A stretch of 64,000 nucleotides of DNA from Nitrospiraceae bacterium (GTDB lineage: Bacteria > Nitrospirota > Thermodesulfovibrionia > Thermodesulfovibrionales > UBA1546), in NCBI GenBank assembly GCA_021373015.1, contig JAJFTJ010000005.1:124001-188000 (forward strand). Reading direction: 5' to 3'. Shown piece by piece: positions 1 through 25,209 of the stretch. The notes beneath the pieces are model-generated. The model was not told the origin of the DNA and searched no databases. It saw only the letters and a program-made list of their open reading frames with translations. A program made the position numbers and the translations under genes. Each line of letters begins with the position of its first letter. Positions within the stretch are counted from its first letter, which is position 1.

Positions 1-1413
1 ACTCATGGAGATTTCTTCAGGCCAGTCGCGCATCATCCCTTCTTCGCGTGTTTTTCTTGTTGCATCAAGTCCCATCTTTGCCCCATATCTTGGCCAATTT
101 GAAGCATGGTCAAGGGCGTCAAGCGGTCCGTCAGTTACTATTACATCACGCTTCCAGTCAACATTATTAAGCACTCTCCATGCTGTATAAGAAAGATTCT
201 GCACATCCACATCATCATCAACAACTATAAGTAATTTTGAGAACATCATCTGTCCTTTTCCCCAGAGGCCGTTGATTATTTTTTTTGCATGTCCCGGATA
301 GCTCTTTTTTATCGAAATAAGCGCGAAATTATGGAATACGCCTTCCATTGGAAGATTAATGTCTTTTATCTCAGGGAAGTCTAATCTTAAAAGAGGGAGA
401 AAAATCCTCTCGGTTGCTTTTCCCATGTAGCAGTCTTCCATTGGAGGTTTTCCAACAAGTGTTGCAGGATATATCATGTCTTTTCTGTGAGTTATACATG
501 TGACATGAAAAACAGGATAGGGCTCTGCAGGAGAATAAAAACCAGTATGGTCGCCGAATGGTCCTTCCATTCTTGTCTCGCCAGGTTCAAGATATCCTTC
601 GATAACCATCTCAGAGTTTGCAGGCACTTCTATATCGCTTGTTATGCATTTAACCATTTCAACAGGTGCATTTCTCAAAAATCCTGCAAAAAGCATCTCA
701 TCGATCGATTCAGGCAAAGGAGCGCTTGAAGAATATATAACAGCAGGGTCGCTTCCAACTGCTATTGCTGCAGGCATTCTCATGCCAAGTGTTTTGTATT
801 TCTCATAATGCCGTGCTCCGTCTTTATGTATATGCCAGTGCATACCTGTTGTTGTTTTATCGTAAATATGTATTCTATACATTCCACAGTTCTGTCTTCC
901 TGTTTCAGGGTCTTTTGTGAAAACCATAGGAAATGTTATAAATCTTCCTTCATCTTCGGGCCGGCCATCATGAGGCCAACATTTTATTATTGGAAATTTG
1001 GAAAGATTAGGATTGTTTTTTTCTATAATTTCATGGCATGGAGAGTTTTTTACATATTTAGGAAGATATTTGGAAAACTCAACCAGTTTTGGCAATAATG
1101 CAAGTTTTTCTGTCAAAGTTTTTGGCGGCGCCTGATTAAGTATTTTTTCAATACGTTTTCCAATATCATCAAGATTCTTAACTTCTAAAGAAAGACATAT
1201 CCTTTCAAATGAACCAAATAGATTTGTAGTTAAAGGAAAAGCTGAACCTTTTACTTTTTCAAAAAATAAAGCCTTTCCTCCATCTTTACTTTTTGACATT
1301 CTGTCAGTAATCTCAGCTATCTCGAGTATTGGGTCGACTTCAGTTCTTATCCTATGAAGCAGTTGTTTTTGCTCTAATATTTTAATAAATTCTCTTAGGT
1401 CTTTGTATGCCAT
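1..1413 (-). CDS. ubiD: UbiD family prenylated-FMN decarboxylase (3' end outside window)
   Basis: UbiD enzymes decarboxylate aromatic or unsaturated acids using the prenylated FMN cofactor made by UbiX. In quinone-producing bacteria they act in ubiquinone or menaquinone synthesis. The 471 codons in the window run from the N-terminus (MAYKDLREF) through the conserved core, with EGPFGDHTGFYSP, the HWHIHKDGARH region and MGLDATRKT. The family is usually 480-610 residues, so the C-terminus lies off the left edge. The ATG at 1413 has GAGAGG four bases upstream and a TGGTATTAT extended -10 before that. It is divergent from the IHF gene. A matching UbiX lies at 61308-61907. Which substrate is used (quinone precursor or another acid) cannot be told from the sequence. 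Confidence 0.93.
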   Translation of the reverse strand, partial: MAYKDLREFIKILEQKQLLHRIRTEVDPILEIAEITDRMSKSKDGGKALFFEKVKGSAFPLTTNLFGSFERICLSLEVKNLDDIGKRIEKILNQAPPKTLTEKLALLPKLVEFSKYLPKYVKNSPCHEIIEKNNPNLSKFPIIKCWPHDGRPEDEGRFITFPMVFTKDPETGRQNCGMYRIHIYDKTTTGMHWHIHKDGARHYEKYKTLGMRMPAAIAVGSDPAVIYSSSAPLPESIDEMLFAGFLRNAPVEMVKCITSDIEVPANSEMVIEGYLEPGETRMEGPFGDHTGFYSPAEPYPVFHVTCITHRKDMIYPATLVGKPPMEDCYMGKATERIFLPLLRLDFPEIKDINLPMEGVFHNFALISIKKSYPGHAKKIINGLWGKGQMMFSKLLIVVDDDVDVQNLSYTAWRVLNNVDWKRDVIVTDGPLDALDHASNWPRYGAKMGLDATRKTREEGMMRDWPEEISMS

Positions 1414-2384: not shown

Positions 2385-3533
2385 ATGACAAAGACTAAAA
2401 TAGAACTTAAAGATATTCCCAATCAGAAGGCTTTGCTTAGAAGAATCAGCGTATTTTCAGTTTTTATTATTGTAATTTATATACTTTTACTTTTGTCGGG
2501 TCAGTTCTGCTGCGATAATTCTGCTGGTTATGTAACTATTGTTTTGTTTCTTCTTTTAGCTATGGCAGTCATTCTTACAGGGTGCGAGTTATTTGCAAAC
2601 GGGATAGAACATGTAGGCAGAAAGCTTGAGTTATCTCACGCAACATCTGGAAGTATACTTGCAGCAGTAGGCACAGCGCTTCCTGAAACTCTTCTTCCTG
2701 CGCTTGCTCTGATCTTTGGACAGAAGGGTCATGCTGAATCAATAGCAGTCGGCGCAATACTTGGAGCTCCCTTTATGCTCTGCACATTGGCTTTTTTCAT
2801 GGTTGGCACTGTTTCTTTGATACTATGGTTTTTGAAAAAAAGAAAGCATCCTGTTGTACATACCAATATTTCTTCTTTGAAAACAGAGCTCATATTTTTT
2901 ATTGCTGTGATGACCGGTGTTCTGATGATTTCTCTGTTAAATAGCAGCCTGATAAATCACATTGGAGCAATATCATTGCTGATGGTTTACGCTTTTTTTG
3001 TAAAAGTGTCATTCAGTCATTCTGCAGAAGAAGGCGAGGAATATTCTGAACACTTCCATTTCAGTTTCATCATGGCTTGCCCTGCCAGCAGGATATGGAT
3101 AACAATTCAGACCCTTATTGGGTTAGGACTTATTGTTGTTGGTGCGCACATTTTTGTTAATTATCTTACTGTATTGTCCATAAAATCAGGTATTTCATCA
3201 CTTGTTCTTTCGCTTTTACTTGCGCCTGTTGCAACAGAGCTTCCTGAAAAATTCAATTCAATAACATGGACTATAAAAAGAAAAGATACACTTGCAATCT
3301 CGAATATTACAGGGGCAATGGTCTTTCAGTCGACAATCCCAGTTTCCATCGGATTAATGTTTACAGAATGGAAACTGGGCAGCACTGAATTGCTGAACAT
3401 TATTTTATCTCTTACTGTAGCAGCAGCGATTCTCCTTGTTGTTAACACCATGAAAAGACTGCCTTCGTGGGTATTGATGTGCTGCGGCTTGATATATCTA
3501 ATGTATATTATCAGGGTTTTTTTCCTGAACTAA
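2385..3533 (+). CDS. CaCA-superfamily cation (sodium/calcium-type) exchanger
   Basis: This is a 382-residue integral membrane protein with about ten hydrophobic segments. It carries the two inverted alpha repeats of Ca2+/cation antiporters. Repeat 1 (around residues 65-110) contains GCELFANGIEHVG and AAVGTALPETLLPAL. Repeat 2 (around 250-290) contains VGAHIFVNYL and LLAPVATELPEKF. The acidic residues in the PET and PEK motifs correspond to the ion-binding glutamates. Known members exchange Ca2+ or other cations for Na+ or H+; which ion is moved here is not readable. Its stop overlaps the stop of the convergent cobO gene by 4 bp. Confidence 0.85.
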   Translation: MTKTKIELKDIPNQKALLRRISVFSVFIIVIYILLLLSGQFCCDNSAGYVTIVLFLLLAMAVILTGCELFANGIEHVGRKLELSHATSGSILAAVGTALPETLLPALALIFGQKGHAESIAVGAILGAPFMLCTLAFFMVGTVSLILWFLKKRKHPVVHTNISSLKTELIFFIAVMTGVLMISLLNSSLINHIGAISLLMVYAFFVKVSFSHSAEEGEEYSEHFHFSFIMACPASRIWITIQTLIGLGLIVVGAHIFVNYLTVLSIKSGISSLVLSLLLAPVATELPEKFNSITWTIKRKDTLAISNITGAMVFQSTIPVSIGLMFTEWKLGSTELLNIILSLTVAAAILLVVNTMKRLPSWVLMCCGLIYLMYIIRVFFLN

Positions 3534-4054
3534 AATTCAATTCCCTTCCGAGCTTTAACTCCATTTGAAAAAGGATGTTTTGTTATCTTCATTTCTGTAA
3601 CATAGTCTGCATTCCTAATAAGTCTTTTGGTTGCTCCTCTTCCAGTAAGAACAAGTTCAAGACTGGATGGTTTATTTAAGATTAAATCCAGCGCTTCATC
3701 TTCTGTAATTAGTTTTTCTGAGAGCAGACAGTTAAATTCATCAAGTATTATCATGTCAAATTTTTCATTGCGCGTTATTTTTTTTATAAAACTGAGGGCT
3801 TTTGTCGTATTTTTTTTAAGTTGATCTCTATTTATATCCGGATTAAAGAAAGGCGAAGATATTTTAGAGAACTTTTTAATTTTTACAGATAAATTTTTTA
3901 GAACATTTGTCTCTCCTTTATCAACATCACTTTTCATGAACTGGATGAACAAAACCTTTAATCCTCTGCTTTTTGCCCTGACAGCTAATCCCACAGCAGC
4001 AGTTGTTTTGCCCTTGCCCTTGCCAGTGTATATATGTACGCAGCCATGTTTCAT
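3530..4054 (-). CDS. cobO: Cob(I)yrinic acid a,c-diamide adenosyltransferase (CobO/BtuR type)
   Basis: The enzyme transfers the adenosyl group of ATP to the cobalt of corrinoids, giving the coenzyme B12 form. The 174-residue length fits the family. The P-loop variant GKGKGKTTAAVG is at residues 11-22, followed by KVLFIQFMK. The Walker B-like strand is MIILDEF, and LELVLTGRGA is near the C-terminus. No other cobalamin gene is next to it, so it may serve salvage or be separated from the rest of the pathway. About 280 bp upstream (4055-4332) hold no gene I can support and no recognisable B12 riboswitch. Confidence 0.92.
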   Translation of the reverse strand: MKHGCVHIYTGKGKGKTTAAVGLAVRAKSRGLKVLFIQFMKSDVDKGETNVLKNLSVKIKKFSKISSPFFNPDINRDQLKKNTTKALSFIKKITRNEKFDMIILDEFNCLLSEKLITEDEALDLILNKPSSLELVLTGRGATKRLIRNADYVTEMKITKHPFSNGVKARKGIEF

Positions 4055-13800: not shown

Positions 13801-14164
13801 TAATCTTTTAATAAATGCCAAAGAAGCAATGCCTCAGGGCGGTAATCTTAAGATATCCGTAGACAATTTGATTGTTCATCCAAATGACAATCTTACGCTT
13901 GAACCAGGAAAATATGTAAAGATATCAATAAGTGACAGCGGAGTCGGCATACCAGAAAAAAATCTTTCAAGGATTTTCGACCCGTATTTTACGACAAAAG
14001 AAATGGGAAGCCAGAAAGGCATGGGTCTTGGTCTTGCCGTCTGCTACTCTATTATAAAAAACCATGGTGGATTGATTACCTTTGAATCAAAATATGGCGC
14101 AGGATCAACCTTTCACTTATATCTGCCTGCTTCAGCTAATCATACTAATCAGAAAGAAACATAG
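10820..14164 (+). CDS. Hybrid-sensor histidine kinase: membrane region, CHASE, GAF, PAS, HisKA, HATPase
   Basis: This 1114-residue membrane sensor kinase has about seven hydrophobic helices in the first 260 residues. A CHASE-type extracellular domain (around 270-520) is closed by another helix near 545. A GAF domain (about 585-735) is followed by a PAS domain with a PAC tail (about 750-870, ending YIGSCYDITDKK). The kinase core has phospho-His GGIAHDFNNLLTV, N box NNLLINAKEAMP, G1 DSGVGIP and G2 MGLGLAV. There is no receiver domain and no response regulator next to it, so its partner is elsewhere. The signal is unknown. The HDFNN form of the H box places it in the group often found in hybrid kinases. 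Confidence 0.88.
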   Translation: MDVKPVHKGKPTHNIFNKIALLCMSIVLFISVVSIVGWISGRLIVASYSSKYIPMAFTTALFFALISLSFLTYIHSFSDFSRKFARVAAITVIFYSFLTLLQLIVNADIGIDTFLVRAQDTLKDISIGHMSPITSLGFLLSGFSLLALTTRSFKWLDTKYLSAGLSLIVVSIGLIIVSGYMTGRPLLYSGGIVPVALPTAVAFVVSGAGMIMSDISHVKFRTSQLIIFSRGHLFNQRYYPVVLAFFTGVIFSITMAVIAHKLEQKSSRDSFDKHAGILSATLRKNIDENLEVLNSVNAFYTASKQVSRHEFQVFLAKILAQYSGIQAVEWLPFVPESKRNIYEQAAVKDGFVKFKFKELNSQNKLITAAKRKEYFPVYFIEPLKGNESALGFDVASNPISLEALEKARDLGKMAGTARIKLIQETSQQYGILIFQPIYFNGGSHNTLSKRRKNLAGFALGVFRVGDIVESSLKNLNYQDFGIYLYDLSSKTDEELLYTNTNEQKPKSVIFASKTLFDIAGRQWIIKIYPSEKYLSAQNTWYSWAVLSAGLIFTMMLVAYMLTLERHAAETEWSKNAIALDEARLNALYKLSQMSGESEAKITEFALEQGVNLTRSKIGYLYFFNEDHISLELFLWSKEVAKICTAEKIKHYPLNEAGIWADCIRQKIPVIHNDYQNNKDKKGYPQGHVHITRHMSIPIFDGDKIIAVAGVGNKEEPYDEADVRQFSLFMHDMWKLLEHKRISERILKARDFYLTLLETFPALIWRSGTDAKCDYFNKTWLDFTGRTVEQEMGDGWAEGVHREDIDRCVKTYLDAFNKREPFEMEYRLRRYDREYRWIVDFGRPFYDLDNKFAGYIGSCYDITDKKQAEEERLKTKKLESIGILAGGIAHDFNNLLTVIIGGISLARMRIKSDKNTSELLETAEKACEQAKELSYKLITFSKGGEPFKKISSILTLIKEAADSLLKNTNIKTEFYLSQEPYLVEIDEGQMRQVVNNLLINAKEAMPQGGNLKISVDNLIVHPNDNLTLEPGKYVKISISDSGVGIPEKNLSRIFDPYFTTKEMGSQKGMGLGLAVCYSIIKNHGGLITFESKYGAGSTFHLYLPASANHTNQKET

Positions 14165-14275: not shown

Positions 14276-14950
14276 TTATTTTTCTTTTTGCTTAGCCAGT
14301 TCTTCCTGCATTTTCTTTACTGCCTCTTCCATTTCTTTAGATGCTTTTTCCATCTCTTTAGCTTTTGTTGGCCAGTCAGATGCAAACTTTCTTGCAGCGA
14401 TCTGCGCTGAAAGTGAAACTATTATGAATATCGCAGCAATTATTCCCCATACCAGCCATGCAACATTAGACTTTATCTTATGTGTTTCGATTGACGCTAC
14501 TATCAATAAATAAAATCCCCAGATTAAAGCCAGTAAAGAACCAATATAAGGGATAAAACCGAGAATTGTTGTGATTGGGACTATTCCGCTGCTGTACGCT
14601 GCACAGCGATAAGCAACTTCATAGTTTTCCTGCGAACCCATTATTTTCCATATTACGAAAAGAATTGCAGCTGCAACAAAACTGAATACCAAGCCTACGA
14701 TAGGGCCGATGATTATCCCGATCAGCGCTCCTGCAGTGCCGGCCATTACTCCAATCGGCGCTCCGCCAATGTGCAGTAATGCGCCGATAAAGCCTATTAC
14801 CATTGCAATTACAACCATTACTATGAAAAAGATTATTGGGTCTTGAAATCCGCCGGTTTTCGGCATTTCCCTGTAAAAGCCCCAGGGATTTGTGATGACC
14901 TTTACTGCTGTTGAAAGTAAGTTTTCAATAATGTTTTTCCCACTCTCCAT
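14276..14950 (-). CDS. Yip1-family multi-pass membrane protein
   Basis: This 224-residue protein has an N-terminal segment typical of the Yip1 domain (VITNPWGFYREMPKTGG), then five hydrophobic helices (about residues 38-185) and a charged C-terminal coiled coil rich in Glu and Lys. GGGGG is 7 bp before the ATG. Yip1-type proteins in bacteria have no established function. The 35-residue C-terminal coiled coil is probably cytoplasmic and could hold a partner. It stands alone between a convergent kinase gene and the MoaE-like gene. Confidence 0.7.
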   Translation of the reverse strand: MESGKNIIENLLSTAVKVITNPWGFYREMPKTGGFQDPIIFFIVMVVIAMVIGFIGALLHIGGAPIGVMAGTAGALIGIIIGPIVGLVFSFVAAAILFVIWKIMGSQENYEVAYRCAAYSSGIVPITTILGFIPYIGSLLALIWGFYLLIVASIETHKIKSNVAWLVWGIIAAIFIIVSLSAQIAARKFASDWPTKAKEMEKASKEMEEAVKKMQEELAKQKEK

Positions 14951-15039
14951 TACCTGTCCCCCTTTTTAAAAAAATGTTATAGAACTGCTTATTCTGCAAA
15001 AGTGTAGCAGGAAAAAAAAAGGTTTGCAATAGGAAATCT

Positions 15040-15387
15040 TTAAAATTCATCTTCTGTTACAACATCTTTCTTAATACCTGAAATGAGCGCTTCAAAAACA
15101 GGTAAAACATTTTTTCTGAAATGGCCTGCGACAAGTACATACATAATGTCATCTCCAATATTCAGCCTGCCTTCATTAATCCATGCTCTTATTGCGATTA
15201 CACCTTCCTTGCGATTGTATCCTGATACCAAGGTTTCAAGCTTTGTTTTGTCATATGATAGATCCATCCCTTTTATTTTTCTGCCCTCTTTGGATGTTGC
15301 CCTGACAAGCCCATTGTGTATCAAAATCATTCCCAATTCTTCAGGGTTGGCTCTCTGTTTCACTTCTTTAATCCATTGTTCAATCAT
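15040..15387 (-). CDS. MoaE-like protein (molybdopterin synthase large-subunit fold), possibly non-catalytic
   Basis: This 115-residue protein resembles MoaE over most of its length: IHNGLVRATSKEGRKIKGMDLSYD matches the strand and loop after the MoaE N-terminus, and LNIGDDIMYVLVAGHFRKNVLPVFEALISGIKKDV matches the conserved GD-containing strand and long helix. Molybdopterin synthase needs lysines near the C-terminus (the WKKE motif). Here the tail is IKKDVVTEDEF, with lysines but no WKKE. No moaD, moaA or moeA is adjacent. It is either a divergent MoaE or a related protein with another role. A GGAGG site precedes the ATG. Confidence 0.55.
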   Translation of the reverse strand: MIEQWIKEVKQRANPEELGMILIHNGLVRATSKEGRKIKGMDLSYDKTKLETLVSGYNRKEGVIAIRAWINEGRLNIGDDIMYVLVAGHFRKNVLPVFEALISGIKKDVVTEDEF

Positions 15388-15498
15388 AAAACCTCCTTTG
15401 CAATTTTTCTATTATACTATTATTTTTTAACTTGTTATTGAGTGATTCTATATGCTAGTATTCTCTCAATTCAGGTCGCCTGACCCAGTAAAACGGAG

Positions 15499-16305
15499 GT
15501 GAAACTCTCTCTATTACGGAGGTGTAAAATAGTTAAATCTTCTGAAAAATCTGTGATATTTTATCACAGAGCGCATATACAGTTATCGAATACAAAACAG
15601 CATTTTTTACTCTTCGTTGTTTTAATGCTAGTACTGTCTGCTTCAATATATTTCATTACTCCTTCCGTGACATTTTTTATAAATGATTTTGCAAAAAACA
15701 TTCTCTCAGATTATTTTCCTTCAGATTTAATAAACATAATCGAAAAGTCTTTTGTTAAGGATATCTATATTCTTAGTATGCCTGAGAAATATCCGGAGCC
15801 TCTGCTTCCTCCTGCACTTTTTTTATTTTCGTTGTTAAGTATCTTTTTGATAATAAAAACAAAACTTCCAGCTCCTGTTGTTATATGGATAGTATATTCT
15901 TCAATAGTAAATCTTATTTCTTCGATATTTTTTATATTTTTTTACGACCAGTTCCCTTATAACATTGAGGCATTTACTGAGTTATATATAAAGACTGAAG
16001 TAAATATATGGATTTTTATCCCGATTATAATGGGCATGGCGCTTTCATCTCTGCCGTCTAGAATATTTTCGAAGGTAGGGTTAGTTGTTCTGACAATCAT
16101 CTATTCAATGATACTCGGGCTAATAAGATATGTAGCATTTATTTATGTTCTCGCAGATTTTTCTCTGATCTTTATGCCTCTTCTTTTCTTTGCCTTCGGA
16201 CCGTTTATGGACTTTGTATATATCGTAGGAATGTATTCTTTGTATATAAGCAATTATGCTAAAAAAATAGGAAAGGACCTCAGAATATGGAAATGGTTGT
16301 CTTAG
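15499..16305 (+). CDS. Multi-pass membrane protein, first gene of the exopolysaccharide operon
   Basis: I do not recognise a family. The 268-residue frame encodes a basic N-terminus and about six hydrophobic helices, including segments starting LLFVVLMLVL, LPPALFLFSLL and VGLVVLTIIYSM, and it ends in a basic tail (KKIGKDLRIWKWLS). The last 19 bp overlap the GT2 synthase gene, so it is probably its membrane partner, comparable in position to accessory subunits of other synthase systems. The start is uncertain. The GTG at 15499 directly abuts its GGAG, whereas a second GGAGG at 15518-15522 points to an AUA at 15529. Confidence 0.6.
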   Translation: MKLSLLRRCKIVKSSEKSVIFYHRAHIQLSNTKQHFLLFVVLMLVLSASIYFITPSVTFFINDFAKNILSDYFPSDLINIIEKSFVKDIYILSMPEKYPEPLLPPALFLFSLLSIFLIIKTKLPAPVVIWIVYSSIVNLISSIFFIFFYDQFPYNIEAFTELYIKTEVNIWIFIPIIMGMALSSLPSRIFSKVGLVVLTIIYSMILGLIRYVAFIYVLADFSLIFMPLLFFAFGPFMDFVYIVGMYSLYISNYAKKIGKDLRIWKWLS

Positions 16306-17600
16306 TCCTGAAAGCCTATTTTATATTTGTGGCTTTTATAATGATGATTTATGCTGTAAGGCATTACATTTTTATTTTAAACAGGATGTTTGGAGAACAG
16401 AGGATTTATTATCAGGACATAATAGATTCAGAGCTCCCCTCGGTTTCTGTTCTGGTTCCAATGCACAATGAAGAAAAAATGGCTTCAAATATTCTGGATA
16501 GGCTTGTAACCGTCAATTATCCAAAGGAAAAGCTCGAGATAGTTCCTCTGGACGGAAATGTTTATCCAAGCGGGAAGCTTGAAATAATACCAATAAATGA
16601 CCATTCAACAGATCAGACTTCGGTAATCCTTGATAAATATGCTGAAAAATATTCAACGATAAAACCTTTTCACAGGAATACAGGTGACCGCGGAAAACCA
16701 TCAGCATTGAATGATGTGTTGAAAGAGGCTAAGGGAGAGATAGTTGTAATATTTGATGCCGACTATCTGCCTCCGAAGGGAATTATACGAGACATAGCTG
16801 TTTCATTCAGCGACCCTGAAGTCGGAGCAGTTATGGGACGTGTTATCCCAATAAACACAGGAAAAAATTTTCTGACAAGATGTCTGGATTTGGAAAGAAC
16901 AGGAGGTTATCAGGTTGATCAGCAGGCAAGATATAATCTTAAATTAATCCCTCAGTATGGAGGCACTGTCGGAGGGTTCAGAAAAGATCTTATAATTGAA
17001 CTCGGCAGTTTTGACCCAAATGTGTTGACAGAAGATACAGAACTCACATTTAAATTGTTTATTAATGGATGGAAGGTGGTTTATGCGAACAGAGTCGAAT
17101 GTTACGAAGAATCACCTGAAGAATGGCGTGTAAGGGCAAGACAGATAAGGAGATGGTCAAGAGGACATTCGCAGGTAATGTTTAAATATCTAATTCCATT
17201 ACTTAAATCAAAGTGTCTGTCTTTCAGAGAAAAATTTGACGGTTCTTTATTGATGTTTGTCTATACAGTTCCATTTGTTCTTCTTACAGGACTTATCAAT
17301 GCGGCAATACTGTTTTTTTTGGGAGAAATGAATATTATTTCAAACCTTATTGTTTTTCTATTTCTTGGTATTTATAACACATTTGGAAATTTTGCGACAT
17401 TTTATCAAATCGGTACTGGTGCGGTGCTTGACGGCGCAAGTTACAGGGTGCGCCTTCTGCCATTTTTTATTTTCAATTTTTTGTTCAATATATGGTACAC
17501 ATCTCTCGGTTTTGTCGATGCAATAATTGACTTATTTACGAAAAGAAGATCCGTATGGCAGAAAACTAAAAGATACGGGAACGGAACGGTTAAGGTCTAA
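16287..17600 (+). CDS. Processive family-2 glycosyltransferase (polysaccharide synthase)
   Basis: This 437-residue membrane glycosyltransferase is probably the polymer synthase of the operon. After an N-terminal helix (residues 5-30) the GT-A domain shows VSVLVPMHNEE, the first Asp in INDHSTDQT, the DXD in VIFDADYLPP, TED in LTEDTELTF, and the processive-synthase motif QIRRW. Three or four membrane helices follow (about 325-420). The layout matches PgaC and hyaluronan-synthase-like enzymes. No PilZ domain is present. Near residues 78-107 a 15-residue unit is imperfectly duplicated, just ahead of the first catalytic Asp. The gene overlaps both neighbours and shares one base with the next start. 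Confidence 0.88.
   Translation: MEMVVLVLKAYFIFVAFIMMIYAVRHYIFILNRMFGEQRIYYQDIIDSELPSVSVLVPMHNEEKMASNILDRLVTVNYPKEKLEIVPLDGNVYPSGKLEIIPINDHSTDQTSVILDKYAEKYSTIKPFHRNTGDRGKPSALNDVLKEAKGEIVVIFDADYLPPKGIIRDIAVSFSDPEVGAVMGRVIPINTGKNFLTRCLDLERTGGYQVDQQARYNLKLIPQYGGTVGGFRKDLIIELGSFDPNVLTEDTELTFKLFINGWKVVYANRVECYEESPEEWRVRARQIRRWSRGHSQVMFKYLIPLLKSKCLSFREKFDGSLLMFVYTVPFVLLTGLINAAILFFLGEMNIISNLIVFLFLGIYNTFGNFATFYQIGTGAVLDGASYRVRLLPFFIFNFLFNIWYTSLGFVDAIIDLFTKRRSVWQKTKRYGNGTVKV
16518..16607 (+). repeat. Imperfect 45-bp in-frame tandem duplication inside the GT2 gene
   Basis: Units 16518-16562 and 16563-16607 each start TATCCAA and encode YPKEKLEIVPLDGN and YPSGKLEIIPINDH. The first ten codons agree at about two thirds of the bases, and the rest have diverged. 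The period is exactly 15 codons, so the frame is kept. Confidence 0.7.
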
Positions 17601-18598
17601 TGTCTATAATGCTGATTTTTATAGGATTCTTTATTCTTATTATGATACCTTTTATCCCTGGGATAATAGAAATGCTCAGACCAAAAGATTCGGATCCGCT
17701 TTTTATAAAAATGGATTATACGAAAGACCCAAGATATTTTGGAACTGCATTTAAAAGTCTCCTGAAAGAGAGTCTGTCAGACCTTAAGGAAGGGAATAAA
17801 GATGTAAGATTATCCAAAGATGAAGTTGTGAAAATATCCAGCTCAGAAAATATAAAAAGAAACACAGAAGTTTCTACTATTATTTATTTTCTTGGCAAGC
17901 TTGAATCCGAAGATAACGTAAAGTTTGACAAGGAGATTTACGTTGCTGATAGCGTGGAGATAGGGGCAAATGGCATTGTGAGGGCGATAGCTTGCGACAG
18001 GGATATATCTCTTTCTGAAAATGTGAATGTAATAAGATGGCTTGATGCTGAGGGGAAAATAACAGCAGAAAATGGCTGTGATTTAGGTATAAGCTCTTCC
18101 TGTTCCAAAGAATTCAGGATTGCCGATAACTGCAGATTCAAGCGTATTTTGGGCTCTCCTGTTATTACTTTCAGAAAATCTAATGGCAGGATGTCTGTTT
18201 CGAACAAAGAGAGGCATGCGATTTTGGTTGATGATGAGAAGTGCACTGTAATACCTGAAAACACAGAAACAGCAAAAACCATTATCATCAAGCAGGATCT
18301 CTTAATTAAAGACAATTGTATTTTCAGAGAGAGCGTAAAGGCATACGGGAATATTATTATCGGTAAGAATGTTCAGATTTCAGGAAATCTTTTTTCTGAA
18401 AAAAGCATAGATATATTAGAAGGTTCTCAAATCAAAGGAAATGTTTTTTCTCAGGGGCATATACAAATTAGAAATAATGTAGAAATTGGAACTAATAATA
18501 AGATGAAGTCAGTCATTGGGAAGAAAGGCGTTCTGATAGGTCAGGATGTTACCATACACGGATATATAATGACTGAGGGAGCAGGGCTAATAACATGA
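17600..18598 (+). CDS. Membrane-anchored bactofilin-like (polymer-forming) beta-helix protein
   Basis: This 332-residue protein begins with one hydrophobic anchor (MLIFIGFFILIMIPFIPGI). A charged linker follows, and then regularly spaced Ile/Val/Gly turns typical of a right-handed beta-helix, for example VYGNIIIGKNVQISG written as short strands near residues 250-320 (IIIGKNVQISGNLFSEKSI, ILEGSQIKGNVFSQGHI, VLIGQDVTIHGYI). This pattern is that of bactofilin (DUF583) domains, which form filaments and scaffold envelope machinery. Its position directly after the synthase suggests a scaffold for the polysaccharide complex. The role is inferred from context; the fold is moderately sure. Confidence 0.65.
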   Translation: MSIMLIFIGFFILIMIPFIPGIIEMLRPKDSDPLFIKMDYTKDPRYFGTAFKSLLKESLSDLKEGNKDVRLSKDEVVKISSSENIKRNTEVSTIIYFLGKLESEDNVKFDKEIYVADSVEIGANGIVRAIACDRDISLSENVNVIRWLDAEGKITAENGCDLGISSSCSKEFRIADNCRFKRILGSPVITFRKSNGRMSVSNKERHAILVDDEKCTVIPENTETAKTIIIKQDLLIKDNCIFRESVKAYGNIIIGKNVQISGNLFSEKSIDILEGSQIKGNVFSQGHIQIRNNVEIGTNNKMKSVIGKKGVLIGQDVTIHGYIMTEGAGLIT

Positions 18599-20424
18599 AA
18601 AGAATCTTGACAATGGTTTTAATTGTAGTTTCTCTTGGTATTATTTTGTATAGTACGCTGCCAATATATCAGCGTTGGAAATTGTCAAAAGATTTGTCTA
18701 TGAAGGTTCTTTTGGTTTACAGCCCCTATAAAACGGACAATAATTCAATTTTGAAAGCATACTCAAGCGTTCTGGAAGAAGAAGGTGTTTCCTATGAAAA
18801 AATAAACGCTTATTCCCTTATAATGTTAAAAGCCGAAGAAACAGCAAAAACCAAGCCTGTAATAATATTTCCTGACGGAGCAGCCCAGATCCTTCCACAT
18901 GGAATGACATCATGGATTAATGGATATCTTTCCAGCGGAGGAAGTATAGCGATTATATATGATGCGGGCACAAAAAGCCGAAAAGGAAACTTTGTAGATA
19001 ATACGGTTTTTTCGGATATCGCAGGAATAAATTATATTCAATATAATCAGCTCAAAAAAGATGCATTCACAACAGGATTTCTTAAATTTGATAGTTATCA
19101 AAAAGCTGATTTTTTAGAAATCCCACGCGGCAAGCTGGAGAATGACCTGACGTTGAGCAGTTATGGTTACGGCGCCTTAGAATATCCAATTTCGAGAAAT
19201 GAAATAAAACAAGACCAGAAAATCAACGAGATTGCTTATGTGGTTTCAAAAGATGGTAAAAGATATCCTGCTGTTGCAATCAGGCCCTTTGCTAAAGGAA
19301 ATGTTCTTTATGTGAATCTTCCATTGGGACACCTTAAGAGCAACACCGATGATCTCCCTATGAGAGCTATTTTAAGGACATTTTTATTTAAAGTTGTAAG
19401 GATTCCTCATCTGCTTAATGTTCCGTACGGAAAAGGAGGACTTGTCGTAAACTGGCATATTGACTCTAATGATGATTGGGAATGGCTTCCGTATATGATA
19501 GATAATGGATATTTCCGAAAAGGCATAGATTATTCTATGCATGTAACTGCGGGTGATTTCAGAGATAAGCCCGGAGACGGAATAGGGTTCCAGGCATGCG
19601 GAAAAGGCAGGCCATTTATTCTAATGATAAAGGATTTTGGTTTTGTAGGATCTCACGGCGGATGGGGGCACAATTGGTTTGCAGATAATATTGAAAAAGG
19701 AATCTTTAAAAAGGATGAAATAACGAAATACATAAAAAAGAACAATGACTGTCTTGAGAGTGTAACAAAACAAAAAGTCATAGAATACTCTGCGCCAAAC
19801 GGTGTTCATCCCCAGCCTGTAACAACCGAAATATTGGATAAACTTGGCGTTATCTCATACTACTCTACAGGAGATACTGGCTCACATCCGAACAGATCAT
19901 TCATAGCAAACAAAATGGTTTCCGACAAAGTCTTTGCTTTTCCTGTCATGCCTTTTGGAAAATACGCTTCGCTTTATGAGATGAAGAAAGCCGGTAAATC
20001 TGAAAATGAGATTAAAAAATGGTTTAAAGAAACTGTTGATTATATTGTCGCAAACAGAAACATCAGGCTGGTTTATTCGCATCCATACAATATCGAAGAT
20101 TACAAAAAAGGGACAAAATATTTTATTGATTATATCGAAAAACTTTACAAAGAAAATAAACTTCAGGTTAAATCAATGAGTTATTTCACGTACTTTATAA
20201 AAAGATTTTTAAATACAAAATTTATATTTGAACAAAAGGATGGTAGACTCGCGGCGCATCTGTATAACAAAGAGAATCTTGAAGGAATAACGTTGGCTGT
20301 TCCTAAAAATCTTTATAAGAAACCTGTAACAGAAAAAGCATTAATTCAGGAGGATAAAGATTACTATTATTTAGTGGTCAAGGACAAAAAAAATGAAGAA
20401 ACTTTTTATTTTGACGGCATTTAG
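18595..20424 (+). CDS. DUF2194-like protein: glutamine-amidotransferase-like domain plus NodB-like deacetylase domain
   Basis: This 609-residue protein has an N-terminal membrane anchor (residues 4-22). A flavodoxin/ThuA-like alpha-beta domain follows (about 30-270, with KPVIIFPDGAA and the GGSIAIIYDAG strand). A polysaccharide-deacetylase-like domain covers about 275-510. In the latter, WHIDSNDDW supplies acidic metal-binding candidates, SHGGWGHNW a pair of His, and YSAPNGVHP the following motif. NodB-family enzymes deacetylate or cleave acylated sugars. The order resembles DUF2194 proteins, whose activity is not established. It overlaps its neighbours by 4 and 32 bp. It probably modifies the polymer in the periplasm. 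Confidence 0.65.
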   Translation: MKRILTMVLIVVSLGIILYSTLPIYQRWKLSKDLSMKVLLVYSPYKTDNNSILKAYSSVLEEEGVSYEKINAYSLIMLKAEETAKTKPVIIFPDGAAQILPHGMTSWINGYLSSGGSIAIIYDAGTKSRKGNFVDNTVFSDIAGINYIQYNQLKKDAFTTGFLKFDSYQKADFLEIPRGKLENDLTLSSYGYGALEYPISRNEIKQDQKINEIAYVVSKDGKRYPAVAIRPFAKGNVLYVNLPLGHLKSNTDDLPMRAILRTFLFKVVRIPHLLNVPYGKGGLVVNWHIDSNDDWEWLPYMIDNGYFRKGIDYSMHVTAGDFRDKPGDGIGFQACGKGRPFILMIKDFGFVGSHGGWGHNWFADNIEKGIFKKDEITKYIKKNNDCLESVTKQKVIEYSAPNGVHPQPVTTEILDKLGVISYYSTGDTGSHPNRSFIANKMVSDKVFAFPVMPFGKYASLYEMKKAGKSENEIKKWFKETVDYIVANRNIRLVYSHPYNIEDYKKGTKYFIDYIEKLYKENKLQVKSMSYFTYFIKRFLNTKFIFEQKDGRLAAHLYNKENLEGITLAVPKNLYKKPVTEKALIQEDKDYYYLVVKDKKNEETFYFDGI

Positions 20425-21289
20425 TCTCTATTTGCTTTCTGCAGCTTATGCTGACATTGATATTTGCAAGAACCATCCTGCATTAAAAATATCAAGGCAT
20501 TTTGTCCCTGATGAAAAAGATGTGAATTATATTAATCCTTATATAGCCAATATCGAGTCAATATACCTTCTTCAAAAAGGCACAGAACCCAGGATGATTG
20601 GAGATTATATCTCCTGGTATTTAAATCACACGAATTATTCAGATAAATTTGATCTTACAGGCACAATGTATGATTACAAAATATACTGCAAGGGTTGGGA
20701 AAGGGCATTAGAATCATACGACTCGGCTGATGGTTATGCAGGGACATTTCTTTTTCTGGTTTACGAATATTTTACAAAGACTAAGGATAAAGAAATAATT
20801 TTTAAGAACAAACAAAAACTTGAAGATATAGCATATGTTATAGCTCATCTCCAGGATGAAGATGGTCTTACACGTGCTTTACCAGGTAAAAATACTAAAT
20901 ATTTGATGGATAATTGTGAAGCATACGCAGGCATAAGAGCATTTAATAAATTGTCTAAAGAAATAGGCTGGGGTGTAAATGCGTATTATGTCGAACTCGA
21001 ACAGAATATTAAGGACGGCATTTTGTCGTATCTATACAAAGAAGATAAAGAATATTTTTATTGGGCAATAGAAGGCAAGAAGGTTTTTGTGCCTGACAAT
21101 AATAAGTTTTACCCTGATGCTTTGTCACAGATATTCCCGATACTTTATGACTTAATGGATGAGAATAAGGAGTTAAAGCAAATTATGTGGAAAAAGTTTA
21201 AAGATAAATATTCGAATAAAATGAATCTTTTCTCTTCTGAGCAGAGGTTGATTTTCGAGCTTACAGAGAGGAAAATGAGCAGTAAATGA
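20393..21289 (+). CDS. Secreted alpha/alpha-toroid glycoside-hydrolase-like protein
   Basis: This 298-residue protein has a signal peptide (MKKLFILTAFSLYLLSAAYA, cleavage after residue 20). The mature part is helical with paired-helix spacing like the (alpha/alpha)6 barrels of GH8, GH88 and related enzymes. The motif YDSADGYAGTFLFLVYEY (about 97-115) supplies two Asp and is the best candidate for the active site, and NCEAYAGIRAF repeats the pattern further on. I cannot name the family. Placed after a deacetylase-like gene, it could trim the polymer, as the hydrolases in other synthase-dependent loci do. It overlaps the previous gene by 32 bp. Confidence 0.55.
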   Translation: MKKLFILTAFSLYLLSAAYADIDICKNHPALKISRHFVPDEKDVNYINPYIANIESIYLLQKGTEPRMIGDYISWYLNHTNYSDKFDLTGTMYDYKIYCKGWERALESYDSADGYAGTFLFLVYEYFTKTKDKEIIFKNKQKLEDIAYVIAHLQDEDGLTRALPGKNTKYLMDNCEAYAGIRAFNKLSKEIGWGVNAYYVELEQNIKDGILSYLYKEDKEYFYWAIEGKKVFVPDNNKFYPDALSQIFPILYDLMDENKELKQIMWKKFKDKYSNKMNLFSSEQRLIFELTERKMSSK

Positions 21290-22491
21290 AAATTCTAGTT
21301 GTGTTTGGCACCAGACCTGAGGCTATAAAACTTTCATCTGTGATTCATCTGCTGAAGGATAAGTTTGATGTAAAGATTCTGTCCTCAGGCCAGCATCTGG
21401 AACTAACCAATCAGGCAATTAATTTTTTTGGGATAAAACTGGATTATAACCTTGCTTGTATGCCAAAAAAACCGGATCTCATGGTAGTTTACGAGAAAAT
21501 TATTTTAAAAATGAAGCGTATAATCGATAAGGAAAATCCTGACCTTTTGATTGTTCAGGGAGATACCCTGAGTACTTATTCAGGAGCTTTTCTGGGCTTT
21601 ATGTTTAAAAAACCTGTTTTGCATGTTGAGGCAGGATTAAGAACTTTCAATAATTTTTCTCCATTTCCTGAAGAGATGCTGCGGCTTTTGGTGTCGCGCC
21701 TTGCATGTTTTCATTTTGTTCCTACAAAAAGATCAGCTGAGAACCTAATTGCAGAAGGCATAAAAAAAGACAAAATATTTATTTCAGGGAATACTGTGGT
21801 TGATTCTTTGCTTTATACAAAGAAAAATATTAATGAAAAGACGGTTTTTGAAGAGCTTGCAAAGACTAATCAAGGAATAGAAAAGAAAATCCATTCTAAA
21901 AAACTAATACTGATTACATCACATAGAAGAGAAAACATTGGAGAACCGCTGAGAAATATATGCAGGGCAGTGAAACAGCTTGCGGACAAGTATAAAGATG
22001 CATTTTTCTTGTGGTCTCTTCATAAAAACCCTGATATAAGAAAGATAGTGTTGGATGAAATCTCAGGAAATTCAGATAATATAATATTGTCTGAATCATT
22101 TTCATATCAAACTTTGATTTATTTAATGGAAAATTCTCATATAATAATGACTGATTCAGGAGGCATACAGGAAGAAGCGCCTACATTTCATAGGCCTTTG
22201 ATAATTCTGAGAGAATCAACAGAAAGACAAGAAGTTGTTGAAAAAGGCATAGGTTTTCTTACAGCATGCAATATAGACAAAACAGTGAATATATTTACTT
22301 CTTTATATGAAGATAAAGAATTTTATAGTAATATTTCGAAGAAATCTAATCCATTTGGAGACGGAAAGGCTTCGAAAAGGATTCTGGATTTTCTCCTGCT
22401 GGATGAAGTGAAAAGTTTTATAAAAAATTACCCTGCCTCATCGGAACAGATACTAAATGTAAAAGGAAAAGTAGATGAATTTAAAGAATGA
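21286..22491 (+). CDS. wecB: UDP-N-acetylglucosamine 2-epimerase (non-hydrolysing)
   Basis: The enzyme interconverts UDP-GlcNAc and UDP-ManNAc. The 401-residue length is close to that of WecB. Motifs include the N-terminal VVFGTRPEAIKL, QGDTLSTYSGA, HVEAGLRTF, ITSHRRENIG and the nucleotide-binding TDSGGIQEEAP. Inside this operon it most likely supplies UDP-ManNAc for the GT2 synthase, so the polymer may contain ManNAc or a derivative. No UDP-ManNAc dehydrogenase is present in the window. The start overlaps the previous stop in ATGA form, and the end overlaps the barrel gene by 17 bp. Confidence 0.9.
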   Translation: MKILVVFGTRPEAIKLSSVIHLLKDKFDVKILSSGQHLELTNQAINFFGIKLDYNLACMPKKPDLMVVYEKIILKMKRIIDKENPDLLIVQGDTLSTYSGAFLGFMFKKPVLHVEAGLRTFNNFSPFPEEMLRLLVSRLACFHFVPTKRSAENLIAEGIKKDKIFISGNTVVDSLLYTKKNINEKTVFEELAKTNQGIEKKIHSKKLILITSHRRENIGEPLRNICRAVKQLADKYKDAFFLWSLHKNPDIRKIVLDEISGNSDNIILSESFSYQTLIYLMENSHIIMTDSGGIQEEAPTFHRPLIILRESTERQEVVEKGIGFLTACNIDKTVNIFTSLYEDKEFYSNISKKSNPFGDGKASKRILDFLLLDEVKSFIKNYPASSEQILNVKGKVDEFKE

Positions 22492-23293
22492 ACTGAAAAA
22501 AACAATTGTTTTAGCCGCTGTATTTTTTGTGTTTTTCCCATGTATTATTCATGCGGAAGATGCAGATCAGGAAAAGAAAAACCGAATAGAAGCAGTTTTT
22601 TCTTATGAATATCTGAACCCTAATGAAACTTATGGAGAGTGGAAAGGGCTTTCCCTTGCATTTTACAGAACGCCTTCTAGTGACCTGACATATTTTATTC
22701 AGGGAGGAACTTTCTGGAGAAAAGAAGGAAACGGATTTACGGGAACCGTCGGCGCTTATAAAGACTGGCTTGAAAGACTTTATACCTATTCTGCAGTTTC
22801 TGCTGGAACTAATTCAGAATATCTGCCGAAATTCAGAATAGACCATGATTTTAATTTCAAATTAGGTCCTGAAAAAAATATTGTATGGATAGCAGGCATA
22901 AGCTATTTGCAGTATTTCGGCGATCATAGAGACCTAATCTTATCAACAGGAGTTGCATTATACTACCCTGAAGATTGGGTATGGGAATACAGAATTTTCA
23001 GAAACGACAGCAGCCCTGGAAATGTTATTTCTTATTCTCATCTGATAAGTGCGGGGTATGGAAGGGAGAAATGGCAGTGGACATATCTTGACGTTTCGTT
23101 TGGCAATCAGGCTTATAATGCAACCAATTTAGAAAGCCCGGAAAAGGTTGATCAAAATGCCTTAAGAGTAGGATTAAGAAATAAAACTTGGATAGGCAAG
23201 GATTATGGTGTAATGGGTGATGTAAGTTTTTTCAAGCTTCAGGACGGTTATAAAAAATATGGTTTTTCGTTGGGTGTATTCAAAGAATTTTAA
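22475..23293 (+). CDS. YaiO-family outer-membrane beta-barrel protein
   Basis: This 272-residue protein has a signal peptide ending after residue 27 (CIIHAEDA). The mature part is made of alternating aromatic strands and ends in Phe (SLGVFKEF), as outer-membrane barrels do. The pattern matches the YaiO family: EAVFSYEYLNPNETYGEW, the repeated short turns and AVSAGTNSEYLPKFRIDHDF. A 12-strand barrel would fit the length. As the last gene of the operon it could be the polysaccharide exit pore, although no TPR domain like that of PgaA is attached. AAGGA lies 8 bp before the ATG. Confidence 0.75.
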   Translation: MNLKNELKKTIVLAAVFFVFFPCIIHAEDADQEKKNRIEAVFSYEYLNPNETYGEWKGLSLAFYRTPSSDLTYFIQGGTFWRKEGNGFTGTVGAYKDWLERLYTYSAVSAGTNSEYLPKFRIDHDFNFKLGPEKNIVWIAGISYLQYFGDHRDLILSTGVALYYPEDWVWEYRIFRNDSSPGNVISYSHLISAGYGREKWQWTYLDVSFGNQAYNATNLESPEKVDQNALRVGLRNKTWIGKDYGVMGDVSFFKLQDGYKKYGFSLGVFKEF

Positions 23294-23335
23294 CGGGGAT
23301 AATTTTTACTTGAACCATAAAAAATACTCGGATTT

Positions 23336-23878
23336 TTAATCTAAACTCTCAAGCTCTTTTTTAAAAAATTCCATTGTTCTTTCATCAAAGACGCAGAATT
23401 CAATAACCTCCAGCGAAGTTTTAGGGTTATCTTTAAAATAATTTGCAGATTCTCTGACCAATATTTTTGCACATCTGTCCTTTGGAAACCCGAATATGCC
23501 TGAGCTTATTGCAGGCATAGAGATGCTTTTAAGGTTGTTTTCAGATGCAAGTTTAAGCGCACTAAGCACAGCATTCCCCAGTTTGTTGTCTTCATTGCCT
23601 TCGCCTATAATTGGTCCAACTGTATGTATGACAAATTTTGCATGGAGTCTGCCTGCATTTGTTATCACTGATGTGCCTACAGGCGTATAGCCGATCTTGT
23701 CGCTTTCTTCCTGAATTACTGCTCCGCCTTCTCTGACTATTGCTCCTGCAACGCCGCCTCCGTGTTGAAGATAAGAGTTAGCCGCATTGACAATAGCATC
23801 GACTTTTCGTTCTGTAATATCACCTTGAACGATTCTTAATGTACGGTTTTGAATAGTCTTTTCAGTTATCAGTTTCAT
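23336..23878 (-). CDS. Macro-domain protein (O-acetyl-ADP-ribose deacetylase type)
   Basis: This 180-residue single macro domain binds ADP-ribose and its derivatives. The family hydrolyses O-acetyl-ADP-ribose or removes ADP-ribose from proteins. The ligand-binding motifs are VDAIVNAANSYLQHGGGVAGAI, VIHTVGP and AISSGIFGFP. The catalytic Asn and Asp-like positions of the YmdB type are kept. It is convergent with the YaiO gene and divergent from nfeD, about 36 bp apart. Confidence 0.92.
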   Translation of the reverse strand: MKLITEKTIQNRTLRIVQGDITERKVDAIVNAANSYLQHGGGVAGAIVREGGAVIQEESDKIGYTPVGTSVITNAGRLHAKFVIHTVGPIIGEGNEDNKLGNAVLSALKLASENNLKSISMPAISSGIFGFPKDRCAKILVRESANYFKDNPKTSLEVIEFCVFDERTMEFFKKELESLD

Positions 23879-23898
23879 GAATATATCGCAAAGCTTTA

Positions 23899-23907
23899 TG
23901 CTATAAT
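23899..23907 (+). promoter_or_regulatory. Extended -10 promoter of nfeD, leaderless arrangement
   Basis: TGCTATAAT (extended -10 with a consensus hexamer at 23902-23907) ends 6 nt before the ATG at 23914. The usual start site falls on the A of the ATG. No Shine-Dalgarno is present and no good -35 is needed with the TGn element. Confidence 0.55.
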
Positions 23908-23913
23908 TTTATC

Positions 23914-25209
23914 ATGTTAAAAAACATCAGTAAACTAATCAGCATAGTTTTTTTCTTGGTTTTATTTCTGCCTTTTTTTGTTTTTTCTGAAACGCCTAAA
24001 AATTATGTTATGGTCATTACTGTCAACGGAGTAGTTAACCCTTCATCAGCTGAATATATAAGCAAGAGTATAAAAGAGGCTAACAAACAAAAATATCAAG
24101 CTCTTATAATCCAGCTCGACACACCTGGCGGCCTTGATACATCAATGCGGACGATCGTTAAAGACATTATTGCAAGTGAAGTCCCTGTTGTTGTCTATGT
24201 TTCTCCAAGCGGAGCAAGAGCTGCTTCAGCAGGAGTATTCATAACTCTTGCAGCACATGTAGCGGCAATGTCTCCTGGAACTAACATCGGCGCTGCGCAT
24301 CCTGTTGGAGTTGGTGAAAAAATGGACAAGACAATGGCTCAAAAAGCAACGAATGACGCTGCAGCTTATGTAAAGTCGCTTGCAGAAAGAACAGGAAGAA
24401 ATTCAAAGTGGGCTGAAGATGCTGTAAGAAAAAGTATATCTGCAACTGAACAAGAGGCTTTGAAAGAAAATGTCATTGATTTGGTAAGTAAGGATATAAA
24501 ATCACTGCTTTCTGAAATAGACGGCAAAAAAGTTAAAACCATTATGGGAGATAAAACACTTCATACTGCCAACTCAGGAATTGTGAAGGGTGAAATGGGA
24601 TTCAGGCATAGGATATTGAATGTTATAACTGATCCCAGTGTTGCATACATTCTCATGCTTTTAGGATTTTACGGTCTGTTTTTTGAGCTTACAAGTCCGG
24701 GTGCAGTCTTTCCTGGTGTTGTTGGCGGTATATGTCTGATACTTGCTTTTTACGCATTCCAGATGCTGCCTGTTAATTATGCCGGATTACTGCTTATTGT
24801 TTTGGCCATAATACTCTTTGTTCTTGAGGTTAAGATAGTTTCTCATGGAGCGCTTACTATTGGAGGAATAGTGTCGATGATCTTCGGTTCTCTAATGCTT
24901 TTTGATTCTCCTGAACCTTTTATGAGGCTCTCGATTCTCCTTGTCCTGCCAGCAGTGCTTGTAACAGCATTTTTCTTTATAATGGTGTTTCGACTTGCAT
25001 ACAAGGCATACAGGATAAGACCTATTACAGGAGCTGAGGGTCTTATCGGCTTAGAAGGCATTGCCAATACAGATATAACAAAAAGCGGAGGCATGGTATT
25101 GGTAAATGGAGAAATCTGGTCAGCACATTCTGATCCAGACATACTAAAAGGCGAAAAAGTAATTGTTGAGAATGTATCAGGTTTAAAATTAAAAGTAAGG
25201 AAATCTTAA
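23914..25209 (+). CDS. nfeD: NfeD-family membrane serine protease (stomatin operon partner)
   Basis: This 431-residue protein has a signal or anchor segment (residues 8-28), a ClpP-like protease domain (about 30-225), four to five membrane helices (about 240-370) and a C-terminal OB domain (NfeD, 375-431). The catalytic Ser is in RAASAGVFITLAAH and the Lys in MAQKATNDAAAY, matching the Ser-Lys dyad of the archaeal homologue PH1510. PH1510 cleaves stomatin-like proteins, and the next gene here is exactly such a protein. TPGGLDTSM forms the conserved oxyanion loop. Confidence 0.92.
   Translation: MLKNISKLISIVFFLVLFLPFFVFSETPKNYVMVITVNGVVNPSSAEYISKSIKEANKQKYQALIIQLDTPGGLDTSMRTIVKDIIASEVPVVVYVSPSGARAASAGVFITLAAHVAAMSPGTNIGAAHPVGVGEKMDKTMAQKATNDAAAYVKSLAERTGRNSKWAEDAVRKSISATEQEALKENVIDLVSKDIKSLLSEIDGKKVKTIMGDKTLHTANSGIVKGEMGFRHRILNVITDPSVAYILMLLGFYGLFFELTSPGAVFPGVVGGICLILAFYAFQMLPVNYAGLLLIVLAIILFVLEVKIVSHGALTIGGIVSMIFGSLMLFDSPEPFMRLSILLVLPAVLVTAFFFIMVFRLAYKAYRIRPITGAEGLIGLEGIANTDITKSGGMVLVNGEIWSAHSDPDILKGEKVIVENVSGLKLKVRKS

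Follow-up and report, generated by a model that had tools for sequence, protein, structure and literature searches.

A probable seven-gene exopolysaccharide cluster in a Nitrospiraceae bacterium and its predicted NodB-type de-N-acetylase

We analysed a window of 64,000 nucleotides from a Nitrospiraceae bacterium (assembly GCA_021373015.1, contig JAJFTJ010000005.1, positions 124,001 to 188,000; all coordinates below are those of the window), with the focus on one gene and its product, here called P0001. Its reading frame is uninterrupted and encodes 609 amino acids (aa), and no comparable reading frame was found on the opposite strand at 18595-20424. Judging from its sequence, its predicted fold and the genes around it, P0001 is, with fair probability, a metal-dependent de-N-acetylase that is tethered to the inner membrane on its periplasmic side and acts on a nascent exopolysaccharide. 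The strongest clue to this function is the genome context, which lay outside an earlier note on the same DNA.

Scanning the genome contig collection with P0001 as a single protein found no relatives. A search of 395 genomes of its own phylum gave matches at E<=1 in 33, of which four, including the window's genome, hold true homologues; the remaining 29 matches (E 0.003-0.9) were treated as chance. The alignment of these homologues led to 25 loci in the contig collection, 22-58% identical to P0001, where L030, L037, L038 and L043 are the same contigs as homologues of the own-phylum search. Because homologues in this identity range occur in many phyla, P0001 is a real gene. The records name Nitrospirota, Elusimicrobia, Aminicenantes, Sporomusaceae, Persephonella, Thermocrinis, Sulfurovum, Acidobacteria, one member of the Clostridia and, among the Betaproteobacteria, Aquitalea, Chromobacterium, Xenophilus, Oxalobacteraceae and Burkholderiales; most are metagenome-assembled genomes (MAGs), and single organism labels may be wrong.

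The locus and its seven genes

P0001 is encoded within a compact group of seven genes that share a strand (15499-23293), and its gene overlaps the adjoining one on either side by between a few and some tens of bases. The open reading frames of all 25 loci were searched with profiles of the seven window proteins, and the resulting occurrences are listed together with the features in Table 1.

Table 1. Genes of the cluster, with domains and motifs of P0001 (TM, transmembrane segment; occurrences are given out of 25 loci)
Feature	Position	Strand	Evidence and occurrence
Polytopic membrane protein, 268 aa	15499..16305	+	8 hydrophobic stretches, some overlapping; 21/25 loci
GT2 processive glycan synthase, 437 aa	16287..17600	+	PF13641 9e-24; BcsA matches in PDB; 22/25 loci
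Bactofilin/hexapeptide-like beta-helix protein with N-terminal TM, 332 aa	17600..18598	+	TM 1-19; 22/25 loci
P0001, envelope de-N-acetylase (predicted)	18595..20424	+	homologues, model, fold matches; 25/25 loci
P0001: membrane anchor / uncleaved signal helix, residues 2-32	18598..18690	+	modelled helix 2-32; hydrophobic 4-22
P0001: GH42-domain-B / ThuA-like alpha/beta domain, residues 34-275	18694..19419	+	model, fold matches
P0001: NodB barrel, residues 278-541	19426..20217	+	fold matches
P0001: C-terminal beta domain, residues 542-608	20218..20418	+	model, fold matches
P0001: MT1 N286-W-H288-I-D290 (H288 base position, D290 metal position)	19450..19464	+	alignment, profile offset
P0001: MT2 H354-GGWG-H359	19654..19671	+	alignment, profile comparison
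P0001: MT3 E397-Y-S-A-P401-N-G403, no Arg, invariant Glu	19783..19803	+	alignment
P0001: E462, candidate MT4 acid	19978..19980	+	26 rows: 24 E, one N, one gap; hhalign vs ArnD 'TWDEV'
P0001: MT5 R491-LVY-S-H496 (candidate catalytic acid His)	20065..20082	+	alignment
Exported (alpha/alpha)6-barrel protein, glycoside-hydrolase-like ('toroid'), 298 aa	20393..21289	+	model; 16/25 loci
WecB, non-hydrolysing uridine diphosphate N-acetylglucosamine (UDP-GlcNAc) 2-epimerase, 401 aa	21286..22491	+	TIGR00236, PDB 1f6d 5.6e-82; 17/25 loci
YaiO-family outer-membrane beta-barrel, 272 aa	22475..23293	+	TIGR04390 141 bits vs 32; PF19413 101 vs 23.9; 20/25 loci

By its sequence, the GT2 protein is a processive inner-membrane synthase, with the conserved motifs D157-A-D159, E249-D250 and Q286xxR289-W290; its best NCBIfam model is PgaC/IcaA (3.5e-35), at a score far below the cut-off (121.7 vs 422.3 bits). 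In the case of the polytopic membrane protein, a Pfam/NCBIfam scan gave no match at E<=0.01. The toroid protein was modelled with a pLDDT of 91.2; its matches include many barrels of glycosidases and phosphorylases, the nearest being 9ju0 (Z 22.6) and MmpH 7qsj (Z 20.4), and its residues D110, D113, N174 and E176 are conserved; the model points to a likely hydrolase. WecB passes the TIGR00236 equivalog cut-off (359.4 vs 210.15 bits) and keeps D93, E115, E129/E130 and H213, which we take to correspond to the catalytic residues of E. coli WecB. The cluster wecB is the sole copy in the window's genome, and the one strong UDP-sugar dehydrogenase of this genome looks, from its sequence, like Ugd. 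The protein with bactofilin- and hexapeptide-like repeats (Hexapep 6e-5, Bactofilin 0.03, both below cut-off) is unusual, with its TM, as the companion of an exopolysaccharide synthase, and it is kept as often as the synthase itself.

Synthase-dependent bacterial matrix polymers form a short list, namely cellulose, poly-N-acetylglucosamine (PNAG), alginate and Pel. As read from their sequences, the seven genes have the plan of such systems: sugar-nucleotide supply in the cytoplasm, a membrane synthase, a deacetylase and a hydrolase predicted for the periplasm, and an outer-membrane barrel. No description of this gene cluster was found in the literature covered, a coverage outside which most subscription journals lie. 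In one systematic operon survey (PMC7112194), the words YaiO, WecB, mannosamine and epimerase do not occur in the main text.

Predicted fold and active site of P0001

The AlphaFold2 model of P0001, calculated with a 26-row alignment of the family, has a pLDDT of 92.8 and a pTM of 0.91, with no segment below 50. From this model, residues 2-32, a single helix with a hydrophobic core, are read as an inner-membrane anchor. Among the 50 structure matches listed, the closest solved barrels to residues 278-541 are 3rxz (Z 23.7, 239 aligned residues, root-mean-square deviation (rmsd) 2.7), HP0310 3qbu (Z 23.6, 234 aligned, rmsd 2.4) and ArnD 8t0j (Z 22.9, 235 aligned, rmsd 3.1), all of the NodB1.2 group (PMC10967932), and allantoinase 3cl6 is also among the nearest folds. 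The earlier note had proposed a NodB-like domain and named the lack of a NodB fold as the finding that would speak against it; the confident model does have this fold. The structures of PelA (9CGY), Agd3 (6NWZ) and PelADA lay outside the 50 matches listed, which is no evidence against similarity.

The N-terminal domain and the C-terminal beta domain resemble, by fold comparison, domains B and C of GH42/GH164 enzymes, as we presume these names to apply to the matched parts; 5xb7, of this type, matched with Z 18.8 (252 aligned residues, rmsd 4.5) over a model span of 34..607. Because the flanking domains match B and C, the NodB barrel is placed at the point where domain B gives way to domain C in GH42 proteins, and the catalytic TIM barrel of these enzymes is absent from P0001. 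Sequence support for the GH42 link is weak, as PF08532 matches 3 of the 26 family members. The earlier note had joined a flavodoxin/ThuA-like domain to the NodB-like one, and this order is seen in the model, but the protein has in addition the N-terminal anchor and the C-terminal beta domain. The ThuA label is acceptable for the broad class, to which we take the GH42-type 'trimerisation' domain to belong as well, but the closest relative is domain B of GH42/GH164 enzymes.

A side observation concerns the locus L032 (Aminicenantes MAG), where an extra gene directly before the deacetylase (2837-3706) encodes a TM and an N-terminal GH42B/ThuA-like domain with no NodB barrel. It is 37% identical to the N-domain of the adjoining deacetylase and suggests that this domain is able to work on its own.

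At the sequence level, searches of the PDB with P0001 alone (E<=1) and with 5-row and 26-row profiles (E<=10) returned no deacetylase, only weak matches, several of GH42 type. A Pfam/NCBIfam scan of P0001 gave no family at E<=0.01, and the best Pfam signal was Polysacc_deac_1 (PF01522; E 0.046, residues 351-418), at 14.1 bits against a gathering score of 23.1. Over the family, PF01522 matches 22 of 26 members at E<=1; run on ten members singly, it gave 23.9 for L044 and 23.1 for L036, with lower scores or no match at E<=0.05 for the rest. The NodB assignment thus rests on the modelled fold together with weak PF01522 matches. The DUF2194 identity put forward in the earlier note was dropped, since all tests with the corresponding profile PF09960 (curated cut-off 30.4 bits) were negative: no match to P0001 or to its own genome at E<=10, and 0 of the 26 family members at E<=1.

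To describe the active site, conservation was counted over the 26-row alignment with gaps set aside. The rows represent about 20 lineages, as L048/L049, L044/L046, L051/L053, L031/L034 and L047/L052 are close pairs and L038/L043 are halves of one gene. In MT1, H288 is conserved in 25/25 and D290 in 24/25 (Cys in L054). The MT2 residues H354, G355, G356 and H359 are each kept in 25/25 and W357 in 24/25. E397, Y398, A400, P401 and G403 around MT3 are each found in 26/26, whereas position 399, that of the MT3 Arg, is Ser in 23 and Ala in 3 of the 26. E462 is kept in 24/25 (Asn in L054), and R491, Y494 and H496 each in 25/25. The second MT2 His lies one residue further than in HxxxH, and this H-x4-H spacing is also found in NodB2 (PMC10967932). 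The protein with the substitutions, L054:7845-9644 (Clostridia MAG), is a lone homologue outside any such cluster; its metal Asp290 is Cys and its MT4 candidate Glu is Asn, with all His kept.

Profile comparison with ArnD places GSHGGWGHNWF on GLHAWDHHAWQ, EYSAPNG on the CSAAAG stretch, and the regions of E462 and H496 on stretches of ArnD; these alignments are weak (p 0.0018, 5e-5 and 1.6e-4; hhalign probabilities 15%, 39% and 51%). Because hhalign gave a local match lacking MT1 against canonical CE4 proteins from relatives and misaligned MT1 against ArnD, the MT1 register was taken from an ungapped profile offset. An ArnD profile of 9 sequences was slid over 190 offsets, and offset 279 came out best (z 4.3, next 2.8); it pairs H288 with ArnD D9, D290 with D11, and G320 with G41 in the 'SIFFSVGPD' strand. 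In the D-x-D of PelA, D528 is the base and D530 the metal ligand (PMC12022489), and by analogy D9 and D11 of ArnD would share these roles.

The alignments thus support D290, H354, H359 and H496 as keeping the NodB metal and acid positions. At the base position there appears to be an invariant His, at that of the MT3 Arg a Ser or Ala, and in the strand before it an invariant Glu, which together suggest the attractive reading that the Asp-Arg base pair has been exchanged for His-Glu (H288-E397). An Arg at another position of the protein might also hold the base, R491 being invariant. As to the motifs described in the earlier note, SHGGWGHNW is present at residues 353-361, and HIDSNDDW lies within WHIDSNDDW at 287-295, but SNDDW is not conserved and N286-x-H288-x-D290 alone is kept. 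The unusual active site with an Asp and two His was rightly seen, D290, H354 and H359 being invariant or nearly so, but His288 at the base position and the loss of the MT3 Arg had gone unnamed.

Regarding the carbohydrate-esterase families, P0001 shares with CE4 the NodB barrel, the two MT2 His and the MT5 His, and lacks the tandem Asp at MT1, the MT3 Arg holding the base and a PF01522 score at the gathering level. The order of an alpha/beta, a CE and a beta-rich domain, compared as order alone, agrees with CE21 (PelA), whose H-x-D-x-D at MT1 is replaced by N286-x-H288-x-D290 in the favoured register. The D-D found at MT1 in the CE18 and CE26 motifs (PMC7229062, PMC13254593) is likewise absent. 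P0001 probably works in the manner of PelA, Agd3 and PelADA, but because their MT1 definition fails, it is not filed in CE4, CE18, CE21 or CE26.

Conservation of the cluster

The complete seven-gene set was found in 11 of the 25 loci, and many of the misses fall at truncated contigs. With long flanks, the toroid gene is absent from L047, L041, L052 and L031, wecB from L033 and L041, and all partners from L054. Gene order shifts between clades while the gene set stays constant, and all cluster matches lie on one strand, the sole opposite-strand match being a histidine kinase in L031. Within the phylum, the three further genomes that have a homologue also have all seven genes, although in one the set is spread over the ends of two contigs and wecB is split. 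All seven are also found on a plasmid of Cupriavidus sp. P-10. In L029 (Nitrospirota G081), wecB at 1540-2566 lies in two frames with the middle of the protein missing, by decay or assembly error.

By identity ranks (no tree), the synthase of L030 is nearest to that of the window (67%), whereas its WecB is nearest to Acidobacteria (58%; window 38%), and the WecB and synthase neighbours of L040 diverge likewise. Because the WecB lineage differs from the synthase lineage at these two loci, the identities suggest a repeated recruitment of wecB activity by the cluster. Additionally, wecB was looked for beyond the cluster region in six genomes, and five have it (L033, L041, L042, L035 and L054).

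Proposed function, alternatives and related systems

From the sequence, predicted folds, invariant residues and conserved gene set, we infer the following catalytic roles, substrate and order of events. WecB would convert UDP-GlcNAc to UDP-N-acetylmannosamine (UDP-ManNAc), which the GT2 synthase would polymerise across the inner membrane together with the membrane protein; the polymer is probably based on ManNAc, as predicted solely from the presence of WecB. The chain would be held by the GH42B/ThuA-like domain and would then pass the NodB groove of P0001. Polymer binding is a likely job for this domain by analogy, because the alpha/beta/alpha domain of PelADA binds polymer. A cation on D290, H354 and H359 would activate water, His288, paired with Glu397 in replacement of Asp-Arg, would take the proton, and His496 would protonate the leaving amine. 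The (alpha/alpha)6 protein may cut or trim the chain, and the polymer would exit via the YaiO barrel.

Several observations weigh against this reading. No activity is known for any family member, and the MT1 base Asp and the MT3 Arg are both absent; 2VYO, the one CE4 protein described as having neither, also lacks the metal His and was judged probably inactive (PMC10967932). Pairwise alignments of MT1 are noisy, with the H288/D290 register in 60 of 225, MT1 unaligned in 81 and H288 on the metal position in 19. The clusters of L033 and L041 are devoid of wecB despite long flanks, and it lies elsewhere in those genomes; the genome record of L039, whose contig is truncated, yielded no wecB; and L054 has a P0001 homologue with no cluster.

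The lost base Asp and Arg could mean that P0001 is a pseudo-deacetylase, whose NodB groove and N-domain only bind and guide the polymer, its deacetylation being left to a different enzyme or not taking place. The PDB does contain CE4 pseudoenzymes, for example BA3943 (7bkf, among the fold matches), and the N-domain gene of L032 shows that this domain can occur, and perhaps work, apart. We regard this as improbable: the metal ligands (apart from the Cys of L054) and the MT5 His persist even in members at 22-28% identity, which a pure binder would not need, E397 is invariant, and the window's own genome has no PF01522 protein able to do the job instead. It is still harder to credit that P0001 is an ordinary D-x-D deacetylase in another register, with H288 equivalent to PelA H526, D290 to the base D528, and the metal on H354, H359 and another residue. 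PelA H526-x-D528-x-D530 does contain an H-x-D pair (PMC12022489), and 4 of the 225 pairwise alignments set D290 at the base position, but the profile offset favours H288 as base and D290 as metal position, and residue 292, to which the role of metal ligand would then fall, is variable (N, S, F, K, A and others).

The nearest folds among the 50 listed, which include ArnD and allantoinase 3cl6, could also point to another reaction, namely removal of O-acetyl or N-formyl groups or cleavage of another C-N bond, as by the deformylase ArnD or the allantoinase PuuE of the same NodB subgroup. This is the least probable of the alternatives, as PuuE-type proteins are described in PMC10967932 as having no metal ligands, which P0001 keeps, and the cluster context is that of a polymer synthase, a barrel and a UDP-N-acetylhexosamine epimerase. 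A more serious doubt, though still one we would not bet on, concerns the sugar: WecB could be a passenger or serve another envelope glycan, and the polymer be a PNAG-like poly-GlcNAc, as the PgaC/IcaA match of the synthase and the location of wecB outside the cluster in L033 and L041 would allow. However, that match falls far short of its cut-off, the window genome's single wecB lies inside the cluster, several of the loci that lack it are truncated, and wecB shows two apparent lineage swaps.

Building on the de-N-acetylase reading, it is possible, though tentative, that P0001 stands for a new carbohydrate-esterase family with H288-E397 for Asp-Arg, serving an undescribed, widespread system that makes partly de-N-acetylated poly-N-acetylmannosamine, a cationic biofilm polymer. 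If true, this would be one more synthase-dependent matrix polymer, built of ManNAc, with a range that takes in Nitrospirota, MAGs named Aquificota, Elusimicrobia, Acidobacteria and Betaproteobacteria; the NodB fold would be able to swap its catalytic base; and proposed ManNAc glycans would become testable with a dedicated deacetylase and hydrolase.

Of the known systems, PelA of Pseudomonas (CE21; PMC12022489) is similar in its ThuA-like alpha/beta domain, NodB-type deacetylase and beta-rich domain in the same order, and also in the missing MT3 Arg, the two-residue MT1 spacing and a Glu, not Asp, as MT4 acid. A further likeness, as predicted for P0001, would be that a hexosamine polymer made by a synthase is modified in the periplasm. 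In contrast, the PelA chain includes a hydrolase domain, for which the cluster has the separate (alpha/alpha)6 gene, and the position of base Asp528 is His288 in P0001; no Pel genes were recognised in the cluster, which has WecB, YaiO and the bactofilin-like protein. B. cereus PelADA (CE26/CBM114; PMC13254593), which binds N-acetylgalactosamine (GalNAc) oligosaccharides through CBM114, and Agd3 (CE18/CBM87; PMC7229062) also combine an alpha/beta/alpha carbohydrate-binding domain with a CE and a beta-rich domain, but have D-D at MT1, a base-coordinating Arg further downstream and GalNAc polymers as substrates. ArnD shares the D-x-D-type MT1 spacing and the GxH...H kind of MT2, but has no such terminal domains, carries Asp at the base position and is a deformylase.

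The E. coli NGR system (WecB, NfrA, NfrB) resembles the cluster in its WecB, membrane GT2 synthase and outer-membrane barrel, and its WecB-dependent glycan is a proposed ManNAc polymer with a GT2-type synthase (PMC8669472). Of these likenesses the generic GT2 domain alone is one of relationship, the cluster GT2 profile finding NfrB weakly (E 6.7e-9). No cluster profile found a counterpart of NfrA or YbcH; YbcH (296 aa) had been considered as the counterpart of the toroid protein (298 aa), which the profile search did not support. A smaller parallel is the E. coli group yaiS-yaiP-yaiX-yaiO, with a deacetylase, a GT2, a hexapeptide-type protein and a YaiO barrel adjoining, but with neither WecB nor an (alpha/alpha)6 gene. 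YaiS presumably is a PIG-L-type protein, given its AHPDD motif. Searching E. coli with the cluster profiles did not find YaiO or YaiS, and YaiP was found as a GT2 alone. The yai group is uncharacterised, and in E. coli K-12 yaiX is broken by IS2.

Regarding regulation, sigma-70-like sites over 14900-23950 showed no excess (26 found vs 33.6 expected). Upstream of the cluster and on the same strand, the window encodes a CHASE-GAF-PAS histidine kinase of 1114 aa (10820-14164, +), a possible regulator, but kinase matches lie near the cluster in no more than 2 of the 25 other loci (L031 and L033).

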